A stretch of 64,000 bases of DNA. It comes from Pedobacter puniceum (GTDB taxonomy: Bacteria; Bacteroidota; Bacteroidia; Sphingobacteriales; Sphingobacteriaceae). Positions within the stretch are counted from its first letter, which is position 1. The number at the start of each line of letters is the position of its first letter. This document shows positions 59,964 to 64,000 of the stretch, in pieces. A program made the translations under genes and the position numbers. The DNA lies in NCBI RefSeq assembly GCF_009674685.1, contig NZ_WKJI01000001.1:372001-436000 (forward strand), read 5' to 3'. The notes under the pieces were generated by a model, which saw nothing but the letters and a program-made list of their open reading frames with translations, was not told the origin of the DNA and searched no databases.

Positions 59964-61172
59964 TTAATTATATAATAAATATTTTTTTCTGAATTTCTTA
60001 TAAATTTCGAGTCCGTTTGCCCAGCTTTTTCTTATTTCAGCTTCTGTTTTGCCGTCTTTAATTTGTTGCATTAGTTTAGCGTTACCTGCTAATTTATTAA
60101 AGAAAGGTGTGAAGAACTTTTCTTTATCGGGGAAATCCTGATAAAGCTTTAATAAGATACCTATATTAAGTTGTTTTTGATTTTGAATGTCTTTTATAGC
60201 AGTACCTCTAAAATCAATACCATAACAAATCTGATTCTCTAAAGGAGGATTTTTACTCATCCCAACAATACTTATTGGAGTGAAACTAAATTCGTATTTG
60301 CCTTTTAAAGCCGGATGTCCTAAAACTTGGAAAGGATAAAGCGTTCCTCGGCCCTGGCTAATAGCTGTACCTTCAAACATACATAAACTTGGGTACAAAT
60401 AAATAGATAAAGCATTAGGTAGGTTAGGAGATGGCTTAACAGGCAGACTATAAACCATGTTATGACTATAATTTTTAACCTTAACAATTTTTAATTCACA
60501 TTGAGCGCCCTTGGTAAGCCATTTCTCTCCGTTTACCATTTGTGCAAATTCTGCAGATGTTAAACCATGGCCTATAGGTATTTTGTGCATTCCTACTCCA
60601 GATTTAAATTCTGGTTCTAAAATAGGGCCATCTATCAATTGCCCGTTGGGGTTTGGTCGGTCTAGAATAAGTAGTGGTATTTGATTATCGGCGCAAGCCT
60701 GCATTACATAAGCTAAGGTGATGGTATAAGTGTAAAATCTAACGCCAACATCCTGAATGTCATAAACTAAAACATCTATATTGGCTAAATCTTCTTTGGA
60801 AGGGGCGTGTTTCTTACCATATAAAGAAATCACTGGAAGGCCAGTTTTTTTATCGGTATAATTTCCAACTTTTTCGCCAGCATCCGCATCGCCTCTAAAA
60901 CCATGTTCTGGTCCAAATATAGCTTTAATATCAACTCCTAAGCTTTTCAAAGTATCTACTAAAGAAACCTTGTTAATTTCAGCAGTTTGGTTAATCACCA
61001 AACCTACTTTTTTACCTTTTAAATAGGGCAAATAAACCTCTGTTTGTTGTGCGCCAGTAAGTATAGTTTTTTCTTTTTGAGCTTCTTTAACTGTGATAGA
61101 ATTTGGCTTATTACCTGCTATGCAACCATAAAAAGATAGTACGAAAGCTAACAAGAGACTGATTTTAAACAT
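59964..61172 (-). CDS. NamZ-type exo-beta-N-acetylmuramidase (DUF1343), predicted lipoprotein
   Basis: A 402-residue protein with a lipoprotein signal (MFKISLLLAFVLSFYGC, Cys17). The body matches DUF1343: LKGKKVGLVINQTAEINKVS, IKAIFGPEHGFRGDADAGE, LPVISLYGKKHAPSKEDLAN, VLVYDIQDVGVRFYTYTITL, LLILDRPNPNGQLIDGPILE and SQGRGTLYPFQVLGHP. The founding member, Bacillus NamZ (YbbC), removes terminal N-acetylmuramic acid from cell-wall fragments. This homologue would do so in the periplasm for peptidoglycan recycling. The role is inferred from family identity. Confidence 0.88.
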   Translation of the reverse strand: MFKISLLLAFVLSFYGCIAGNKPNSITVKEAQKEKTILTGAQQTEVYLPYLKGKKVGLVINQTAEINKVSLVDTLKSLGVDIKAIFGPEHGFRGDADAGEKVGNYTDKKTGLPVISLYGKKHAPSKEDLANIDVLVYDIQDVGVRFYTYTITLAYVMQACADNQIPLLILDRPNPNGQLIDGPILEPEFKSGVGMHKIPIGHGLTSAEFAQMVNGEKWLTKGAQCELKIVKVKNYSHNMVYSLPVKPSPNLPNALSIYLYPSLCMFEGTAISQGRGTLYPFQVLGHPALKGKYEFSFTPISIVGMSKNPPLENQICYGIDFRGTAIKDIQNQKQLNIGILLKLYQDFPDKEKFFTPFFNKLAGNAKLMQQIKDGKTEAEIRKSWANGLEIYKKFRKKYLLYN

Positions 61173-61202
61173 AGATACTAATTAACGTGTTTTTTTGCGT
61201 AA

Positions 61203-62462
61203 ATGGTCGCATATTTGTGGCTTACAAATAAACAAAAAGAATTTTTGAATCTTGCATTTTTTATAGCCAAAAGGCTTTCCTTTAAAGCAGAGCGTACATT
61301 TTCAAAACTAATTGTACGCATAGCTATCTTAGGCATAACGCTTGGTTTATGCGTAATGTTATTGGCTATCGCTATTATGAAGGGTTTTAAAACCGAAATA
61401 AGAGAAAAAATAAGAGGTTTTAATGGCGATATTCAAGTACTTAAATACGATTTAAACTCGTCTTACGAGAACTCATCTTTTAACCTTGAAAAACAAAATC
61501 TCAACAAAATTAAACAGCTTTCTAACGTAGCTGTGGTTGATGCTTTTGCTACCAAACCAGGTATTATAAAAGCTAATGATGAAGTAGAAGGGGTTGTTTT
61601 TAAGGGTGTTGATAGTGCTTACCATTGGGATAATTTCAATAAAGTTTTAATAGCAGGTAAGGTTATAGATTTTACCAAACCCGGTCATCAACAGCAAATT
61701 CTGATTTCTGAACTTGTTGCTAAAAAGCTGAATTTAAAGGTTGGGGATAATTTTTTGATGTACTTTATTCAAGAATCTTTACGTAAACGTAAGTTTGAAA
61801 TTGTAGGTATCTATCGTACTGGAGTAGAAGAAGTAGATAAGATTTTTGTGATTGGAGATATGGATTTGGTGAGGAGGTTAAATAAGTGGGACGACAATCA
61901 AGTGGGAGGTTACGAGCTAAGAATTAAAGATTTTAACCAGCTTGATGCTACTAGTTATGAGGTTGGAGATGAATTGCCTACACAACTTAAAGCAGTTTCT
62001 GTAACTACCAATTTCCCTAGTATTTTCGAGTGGCTTTCTTTACTAGATATCAACGCTCAAGTGGTTTTGGTTTTGATGTTGATGGTAGCCATCATCAATA
62101 TGATTTCTGCTTTGCTTATTATTATTTTGGAGCGTACACATATGATTGGTTTGTTGAAAGCATTGGGCGAATCTAATTGGGGAATCAGAAAAATTTTTCT
62201 TTATAATGCCGTTTATTTAGTTGGTTTTGGGATGCTTATGGGTAATATTTTTGGCTTAGGCTTAGGTTATATTCAACAGCAAACTCATTTTTTTAAGCTA
62301 GATGAAGCTTCTTATTACATGAGTTTTATTCCTGTCCAATTTGAATGGTTAGATATTATACTCATCAATATAGGAACGTTGGTTATTTGCCTAGCTGTTT
62401 TAATTATTCCATCTATGTTGGTAAGTAAAATATCTCCGGTTAAGGCACTATCATTTAAATAA
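61203..62462 (+). CDS. FtsX-like ABC transporter permease (LolC/LolE type)
   Basis: A 419-residue inner-membrane protein with four helices in the FtsX/MacB layout: one near the N-terminus (IVRIAILGITLGLCVMLLAI), a periplasmic domain of about 200 residues, and three at the C-terminus (VVLVLMLMVAIINMISALLI, IFLYNAVYLVGFGMLMGNIF, IILINIGTLVICLAVLIIPS). Relatives release lipoproteins (Lol) or drive cell-wall hydrolases; no ATPase gene is next to it. The first ATG is 61203, but conserved sequence starts with the TTG at 61245 (LNLAFFIAKR), so the true start may be there. It overlaps the anti-sigma-like gene by 12 bp at the 3' end. Confidence 0.86.
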   Translation: MVAYLWLTNKQKEFLNLAFFIAKRLSFKAERTFSKLIVRIAILGITLGLCVMLLAIAIMKGFKTEIREKIRGFNGDIQVLKYDLNSSYENSSFNLEKQNLNKIKQLSNVAVVDAFATKPGIIKANDEVEGVVFKGVDSAYHWDNFNKVLIAGKVIDFTKPGHQQQILISELVAKKLNLKVGDNFLMYFIQESLRKRKFEIVGIYRTGVEEVDKIFVIGDMDLVRRLNKWDDNQVGGYELRIKDFNQLDATSYEVGDELPTQLKAVSVTTNFPSIFEWLSLLDINAQVVLVLMLMVAIINMISALLIIILERTHMIGLLKALGESNWGIRKIFLYNAVYLVGFGMLMGNIFGLGLGYIQQQTHFFKLDEASYYMSFIPVQFEWLDIILINIGTLVICLAVLIIPSMLVSKISPVKALSFK

Positions 62463-63794
62463 AGACTTATTTAAATTTAGCCTAAAACTTACACCACTCG
62501 AGCCAATTTCTAGTTGTTCATTACCAACTGTTCTTATTGGATATTTGATAAAAGGTTCTATAGCTAAAGAAGTTACATTTTTAACTGGGATATTAACGCC
62601 TACAGATAAGTTTAAGGTACGAGCTAATTGTAGGTTAGAAAATAAGTTATTATTATTTTCTTCTTTTAAAACTATATTGTTGGTTTCTACACCAGCAAAA
62701 CCATAATTTACAACAGAAATATTGTTTAGATAGCGCTCATTTAACAAAGTATACGAACTAAAACCACCGGTTACAAACCAATTGATTTTTTTAGAGCTCG
62801 AGGTATATTTTAATTGTAATGGAATATCAATACCAACTAATCTAGCATTAGAAAAATTTTGTGTAACTACTGTTGCCATCGCACTAGCAAAAGCTTTTTC
62901 TGTGGCAGCATTATTTTGTTGTGGATTATTACTTATAAAGGCAGCAGTTTGTTTATTGAAGTTAAAACCAGAGCTTAAACTAAACTTATTCGATAATCTA
63001 TATTCGGATATTACCCCTATAGCTAAGTTAATGTCTTCGTTAATGCCCTCTTGTGTAAAATTCATAAAAGTTGAAGCATCTAAACCTAATTTCATCTTTT
63101 TTAAAGCTTTAAAAGGCTTATTTACTGCTTTATTTATATCTCCTGCATAAGCATTTTGTGGGGTAGATGTTAAAGCGAGTATAGGTGTATTTTGATTATA
63201 CTGGCGCTTATTATTGTTGCTTTTATCTGTATTTATAATTTCACTGGTTGATGGTATAAAATCAATTAAATGAGTTTGATGGGTAAGCTGATTAATGATA
63301 CTGATATTTTTTGCGTTAATTTCTAAAGGTTTAGCAATTGTATCATTTAAGAAGAAGTAATCATCTACTACAAAATTACTAGCTAGCTTGGTTGAATTTT
63401 GCTTTCTAACCTTTTGATAAGTAATGGTCTCTTCAGTTTGCTTGTTGATATCGTATGATTTTTTGATAATTTGATTATCAGCTGCTATTTTAATGTTTTT
63501 TGAGCTTATTTTATCTTCAATACTTTCTGATGGTTTTTGTAAGCTATTTTTACTGAGTTTAATTGGTTTTAAGTCTTCTTGAGTTTCTGTTTGTACCGTA
63601 ATGTTTAATAACCAAAATATAGCTAGCGCTGCAGCCATACCGCTTGGTAAGCTCCATAATAAAAAAGCTCTTATTTTTTTACGCTGTACTTTCTGTTGAT
63701 ATTTTTTCCAGCCGTCATCAGCCATTTGATCATTGTAAATATCAAATGTATCTTTAATATGATCTCTCAGCTCTTTATCAAATTGCTCGTTCAT
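62451..63794 (-). CDS. Predicted dual-membrane-spanning anti-sigma protein with C-terminal beta-barrel
   Basis: A 447-residue protein with an unusual layout. Residues 1-42 are charged and hydrophilic (DKELRDHIKDTFDIYNDQM), without a signal peptide. Residues 43-67 form one membrane helix (WSLPSGMAAALAIFWLLNIT). Residues 68-228 are polar and asparagine/lysine-rich, probably disordered. Residues 230-447 are a row of amphipathic strands (MKLGLDASTFMNF, FSLSSGFNFNKQTAAFI, LVGIDIPLQLKYTSSSKKIN) that look like an outer-membrane barrel, ending FRLNLNKSLFK. It overlaps the upstream ECF sigma gene by 17 bp. This matches the dual-membrane-spanning anti-sigma proteins reported in Bacteroides. A plain membrane-anchored regulator is the alternative. 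Confidence 0.68.
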   Translation of the reverse strand: MNEQFDKELRDHIKDTFDIYNDQMADDGWKKYQQKVQRKKIRAFLLWSLPSGMAAALAIFWLLNITVQTETQEDLKPIKLSKNSLQKPSESIEDKISSKNIKIAADNQIIKKSYDINKQTEETITYQKVRKQNSTKLASNFVVDDYFFLNDTIAKPLEINAKNISIINQLTHQTHLIDFIPSTSEIINTDKSNNNKRQYNQNTPILALTSTPQNAYAGDINKAVNKPFKALKKMKLGLDASTFMNFTQEGINEDINLAIGVISEYRLSNKFSLSSGFNFNKQTAAFISNNPQQNNAATEKAFASAMATVVTQNFSNARLVGIDIPLQLKYTSSSKKINWFVTGGFSSYTLLNERYLNNISVVNYGFAGVETNNIVLKEENNNNLFSNLQLARTLNLSVGVNIPVKNVTSLAIEPFIKYPIRTVGNEQLEIGSSGVSFRLNLNKSLFK

Positions 63795-64000
63795 AACTTA
63801 GATAAAAATGGTTATTTACTAATTTTCTTAATCTATCTTTTGCTCTTGATAAATATACCCTAGAACTGCTAGAAGGGATATCTAAAATATCTGAAATCTC
63901 TTCATGCGAATAGCCATCAATCTCGTAAAGGTTGAAAATTAAGCGATGTATTTCTGGCAACTCATCTAGTAATTTTAGAATATCTTGGGCATTTATTTTA
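63778..64000 (-). CDS. ECF-type sigma-70 factor, C-terminal part (5' end outside window)
   Basis: The frame is open to the window edge; the last 73 or so codons are visible. They show sigma region 4: ILKLLDELPEIHRLIFNLYE, then the helix-turn-helix GYSHEEISDILDIPSSSSRV and YLSRAKDRLRKLV, which contacts the -35/-33 promoter element. Region 2 lies beyond the window. The stop codon overlaps the start of the anti-sigma-like gene by 17 bp, so the two are translationally coupled. Position and type suggest that the downstream protein controls it. Confidence 0.85.
   Translation of the reverse strand, partial: KINAQDILKLLDELPEIHRLIFNLYEIDGYSHEEISDILDIPSSSSRVYLSRAKDRLRKLVNNHFYLSYERAI

Follow-up and report, generated by a model that had tools for sequence, protein, structure and literature searches.

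The window, a 64,000-nucleotide stretch of the Pedobacter puniceum genome, carries near its end a minus-strand gene with an ATG start, the start of which overlaps, as the first-pass annotation had noted, the end of an ECF sigma factor gene; the overlap measures 17 nt. The sigma gene is cut by the window but is complete in the parent contig, where it encodes a protein with Sigma70 regions 2 and 4. This sigma protein matches PF04542, PF08281, and TIGR02937, all above cut-off, and is built of regions 2 and 4 only in about 190 residues; its best NCBIfam match, in a search that used no ECF-group models, is NF058625, which falls under its own cut-off. Two bases upstream of the sigma gene ends a gene for a small lipoprotein. 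The three genes form an operon in the order lipoprotein–sigma–anti-sigma, with the sigma/anti-sigma pair at its end and an ECF-type promoter in front, an arrangement that is newly described here (Table 1).

Table 1. Features of the sigma/anti-sigma operon and of a second lipoprotein gene. Plain numbers are positions in the window or, where so marked, on the scale of the window continued into the contig.
Feature	Position	Strand	Basis or remark
Probable Dma-like anti-sigma factor gene, 447 aa	62451..63794	-	ORF list, Pfam, AlphaFold2; single copy in genome
Residues 1-40: cytoplasmic N-terminus, predicted anti-sigma domain	63675..63794	-	two short model helices; strong conservation
Residues 43-65: inner-membrane helix after basic residues	63600..63668	-	hydropathy; model helix 40-65
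Residues 66-231: disordered polar periplasmic tether	63102..63599	-	AlphaFold2 model; length kept, sequence diverging
Residues 234-441: predicted eight-stranded outer-membrane beta-barrel	62472..63095	-	PF13568, AlphaFold2 strands, Foldseek
Cognate ECF sigma factor gene, 3' part inside window	63778..64000	-	189 aa; continues to 64347 in contig
Operon lipoprotein gene, 137 aa	L009:6351-6764 = window-scale 64350-64763, outside window	-	contig flank
Operon promoter motif	window-scale 64789-64815 = G000:C1:436789-436815, outside window	-	motif search
Second lipoprotein gene, 151 aa	G000:C2:271274-271726		motif at G000:C2:271234-271260

To describe the layout of the 447-residue protein, we combined hydropathy analysis, domain searches, and structure prediction. 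In the hydropathy profile, a single segment stands out as strongly hydrophobic (the top window of 19 residues is 45–63), in agreement with the single inner-membrane helix that had been proposed at about residues 43–67. Because a very basic stretch, KKYQQKVQRKKIR, stands just before this sole segment, the chain is expected to lie N-in/C-out, and no signal peptide was found ahead of the segment, as the first-pass annotation had also read it. The barrel is the only Pfam match in the protein (OMP_b-brl_2, PF13568, residues 235–381, E 1.3e-6, above cut-off); sequence searches of the PDB and of NCBIfam with the protein gave no match.

The AlphaFold2 model, computed from five sequences taken from the window and related contigs, contains helices at residues 3–16, 22–36, and 40–65, disorder up to about residue 231, and eight strands within residues 234–441 (pLDDT about 70–80). 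Overall confidence is modest, with a mean pLDDT of 44, because the disordered tether (mostly pLDDT 23–34) pulls the average down. This tether, polar in composition, corresponds to the long polar linker claimed from the sequence, and the strands fall within residues 230–447, where a C-terminal barrel had been proposed. The outcome that the first-pass annotation had named as speaking against its reading, a prediction lacking a barrel in that range, therefore did not arise. In Foldseek, the model pairs with eight-stranded barrels of the outer membrane (probability 1.00, best E 1.3e-7), with OmpA, NspA, OmpW, and OmpX among the small barrels of this kind that rank first. In the OmpA fold, eight strands leave both barrel ends in the periplasm, which fits a tether coming from the inner membrane. 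A genome search found the gene in a single copy. We also considered a second barrel gene of similar size (C2:512137) as a paralogue and rejected it, since its product carries a signal peptide and the gene has no sigma gene close by.

Relatives of the putative anti-sigma protein occur in 157 of 201 genomes of the same family, so that a pair of this kind is ordinary there. A sigma gene stands directly upstream in all 33 relatives with flanks read, mostly from Sphingobacteriaceae, and the two genes overlap by 4 to 35 nt at 33 of the 34 loci obtained by adding our own; a few of these 33 relatives represent the same genome reached through two collections. Chance pairing is excluded, since the upstream sigma gene is present in every relative and the overlap is missing in only one. 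A profile built from 16 members and run on 247 genomes across the class matched in 43 of them, with a sigma gene, recognized by similarity, at all but four of the matched loci and nearly always directly upstream. Such pairs are present in many other families of the Bacteroidia, and 8 of 10 profile-found proteins from other families carry the Pfam OMP barrel match. Four loci (L053, L059, L060, and L066) have no upstream sigma gene and were rejected; the products of L060 and L066 resemble ordinary secreted barrel proteins bearing a signal peptide.

Conservation is spread unevenly along the chain. An orthologue in P. glucosidilyticus DSM 23534 is 77% identical. The N-terminus (residues 1–40) is 93% identical to that of P. 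glucosidilyticus and 68% identical to that of P. cryophilus, whereas for the tether the corresponding values are 54 and 22%; between close orthologues, N-terminus and barrel are 89 to 93% identical versus the 54% of the tether. Residues 1–40 are inferred to bind the sigma factor; what the comparison shows for this region is its strong conservation. It would be very surprising if the barrel protein instead had an unrelated function and were co-transcribed merely as a target of the sigma factor rather than serving as its inhibitor: the overlapping, co-oriented pairing kept across relatives, the highly conserved cytoplasmic N-terminus, and the inhibition known from genetic work on Bacteroides and Phocaeicola all speak against it. 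The tether diverges in sequence, yet its length is kept (mean 169, sd 19 residues in 16 homologues), suggesting that an intact link matters. This bears on another explanation, in which an ordinary anti-sigma factor is constitutively cleaved from its barrel, leaving no one polypeptide to join both membranes in the cell. A long disordered tether should be easily cleaved, but its constant length argues for the intact chain, and we regard constitutive cleavage as unlikely.

The surroundings of the pair are also stable. Across the genus, the succession mazG – lipoprotein – sigma – anti-sigma – LolC/E-like – NamZ – fmt is for the most part retained, and other genera retain some of it; for this reason we rejected a recent arrival of the whole locus. 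On its downstream side, the anti-sigma gene is convergent with the LolC/E-like permease gene (window 59964–62462), which it overlaps by 12 nt, and a NamZ exo-muramidase gene adjoins the permease; most of the congeners examined share the order anti-sigma, LolC/E-like, NamZ, and other genera share it in part. Outside the genus, additional small genes (L084:4120-5942, L083:9613-10411) separate the anti-sigma gene from the LolC/E-like gene and are possibly further members of the operon.

For the operon lipoprotein, a model computed from three sequences predicts a small eight-strand barrel with a weak resemblance (best E 3e-3) to lipocalin-like proteins and to the ToxS periplasmic domain, and an NCBIfam search with the lipoprotein gave no match. 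Its signal peptide, MYLNNxQS...ACEK, is near-invariant in the genus and has no lysine or arginine in its first region (compare loci L074–L082); the codons of this segment differ synonymously, so the constraint acts on the protein. Mature domains of two kinds, seemingly unrelated to each other, occur within the genus. One could imagine that the lipoprotein takes part in the switch itself, as a lipocalin-like protein of the outer membrane that either informs the barrel about the envelope or shields the barrel, while the uncharged, near-invariant signal peptide, kept across the swap of mature domains, has a sensing role of its own; we consider this idea a long shot.

Within the genus, the regions upstream of the operon share the motif TGTA[TG]C[AG]-N16-CGT[AC], located 18 to 25 nt before the lipoprotein start. 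When spacings of 15 to 17 were allowed, the motif appeared in 28 of 55 sigma upstream regions versus 0.18 expected from shuffled sequence, with the positive regions coming almost all from closer relatives. A strict scan of eight congeners, with 16S-like sites left out of the count, yielded 42 distinct non-rRNA sites. A lipoprotein gene follows ≈20 of these at a distance of 7 to 45 bp, and a conserved 194-residue ECF sigma gene follows seven of them at about 205 to 238 bp. A reversed control pattern gave 13 sites, none before a lipoprotein gene. After removal of the nine operon sites that define the motif, the comparison is 11 of 33 versus 0 of 13, for a one-sided probability of about 0.015 in which orthologous sites are non-independent.

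In the P. puniceum genome, the strict motif occurs only at the operon, at the other ECF sigma gene, in a ribosomal protein region, and at a 16S-like site; when the motif is relaxed, the second lipoprotein gene and four further sites, the latter seen in an automatic scan, are added. The motif just upstream of that second lipoprotein gene recurs in orthologues down to about 33% identity. Neither the operon lipoprotein nor this second predicted target has a Pfam match above cut-off or a NigD domain. We discarded the match in the ribosomal protein region, matches inside conserved coding sequence resembling guaB, and those with the sequence TGTAGCACGTGTGTAGCC, which, judging by its letters, we take to be 16S rRNA-like. 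The site at the other ECF sigma gene (G000:C4:10576-10602; L106, L180) lies about 205 bp upstream of the 194-residue gene, and the same arrangement is found in seven of the eight genus genomes, which may point to a regulatory cascade or to promoters of a common type. Because the motif also stands upstream of this other sigma gene, some of the targets may belong to that sigma factor. As the motif precedes both the operon and lipoprotein genes, the core response is predicted to consist of self-amplification plus lipoproteins, that is, an autoregulated envelope response. This promoter and the predicted target lipoproteins are likewise new here.

The architecture itself has precedents. The Dma proteins of Bacteroides thetaiotaomicron consist of an N-terminal anti-sigma region, a membrane helix, a disordered tether, and a C-terminal barrel; their genes adjoin ECF21 sigma genes, and the family is described as Bacteroidota-wide and found solely in that phylum (PMC13088901). 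Compared by described architecture, Dma1/Das1 and Dma2/Das2, where Dma2 is BT_1558, have the same domain order and adjacent ECF sigma gene as the Pedobacter pair, and the short cytoplasmic N-terminus, single inner-membrane helix, and missing signal peptide of the family are present in our protein by hydropathy and model. Loss of Dma1 leads to more NigD1 and a greater vesicle output, and Das1 raises expression of the gene for NigD1, a NigD-like protein (PMC13088901). NigD is itself a putative lipoprotein (PMC9308784), and the predicted Pedobacter targets are likewise small lipoproteins; unlike the Dma/Das target, however, the remaining gene of the Pedobacter operon encodes a small, possibly lipocalin-like lipoprotein without a NigD domain.

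In Phocaeicola vulgatus, M0N98_03760/03761 is an anti-sigma/sigma pair with the sigma gene upstream and a predicted periplasm-spanning chain that ends in an outer-membrane barrel; the toxin BcpT switches this pair on, probably by way of envelope stress, and also strongly raises the expression of three NigD-type genes (PMC9308784). This pair shares the build and upstream sigma gene of ours and differs in its predicted targets and in its known toxin response. EcfO of Bacteroides fragilis, known here through its citation in PMC9308784, belongs to a similar sigma/anti-sigma pair by description and is itself linked to oxidative stress.

The Pedobacter pair is thus, by analogy of architecture, of the Dma type already known from B. 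thetaiotaomicron and P. vulgatus. The first-pass reading of a dual-membrane-spanning anti-sigma factor is well supported by the domain order, the predicted barrel, the pairing, and the match to Dma, but its suggestion that the locus extends the principle to another class is weak, because the literature already calls Dma Bacteroidota-wide (PMC13088901) and the similar P. vulgatus pair is known (PMC9308784).

FecR/FecA-type cell-surface signaling also carries an outer-membrane signal to a cytoplasmic ECF sigma factor, but does so through two proteins, whereas the Pedobacter system would use one chain. What was computed directly is how the genes pair, how the domains are ordered, the predicted barrel, the conserved promoter, and the candidate targets; characterized systems built in this way work as anti-sigma factors (PMC13088901, PMC9308784). 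We consider it probable that the 447-residue protein is a Dma-type transmembrane anti-sigma factor that holds the sigma factor by its N-terminus, places its barrel in the outer membrane, and, upon disturbance of the envelope, frees the sigma factor for its own operon and lipoproteins. In this picture, the first ≈40 residues would keep the ECF sigma factor encoded alongside them at the inner membrane, the one helix would anchor the chain N-in, and the long disordered tether would cross the periplasm to the eight-stranded barrel inserted in the outer membrane, where, judging by the Bacteroides precedent, the protein may arrive without a cleaved signal peptide. Outer-membrane disturbance or failed barrel assembly would presumably lift the inhibition: the periplasmic part would probably be cleaved first, and the N-terminal domain would be lost afterward. 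Once free, the sigma factor would use TGTA[TG]C[AG]-N16-CGT[AC] promoters to transcribe its own operon and the genes of a few envelope lipoproteins.

A refinement of this explanation, and not its opposite, is that the barrel senses outer-membrane assembly itself: a domain left uninserted by a BAM block or LPS damage would be degraded in the periplasm and the sigma factor freed with no external ligand. We give this version serious weight, at somewhat less than an even chance. The BcpT that induces the P. vulgatus pair also induces many genes responsive to bacteroidetocin A, a BamA inhibitor (PMC9308784), and the Pedobacter barrel is small and OmpA-like; however, the good conservation of the barrel among close orthologues could also reflect ligand binding, and the authors of the Dma2 work favor glycan sensing at the surface (PMC13088901).

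For the Sphingobacteriaceae, control of a cytoplasmic sigma factor from the outer membrane by one chain is probably the rule and not the exception, and the promoter, together with the short list of target lipoproteins, makes the question of what is sensed and controlled testable outside the gut Bacteroides.
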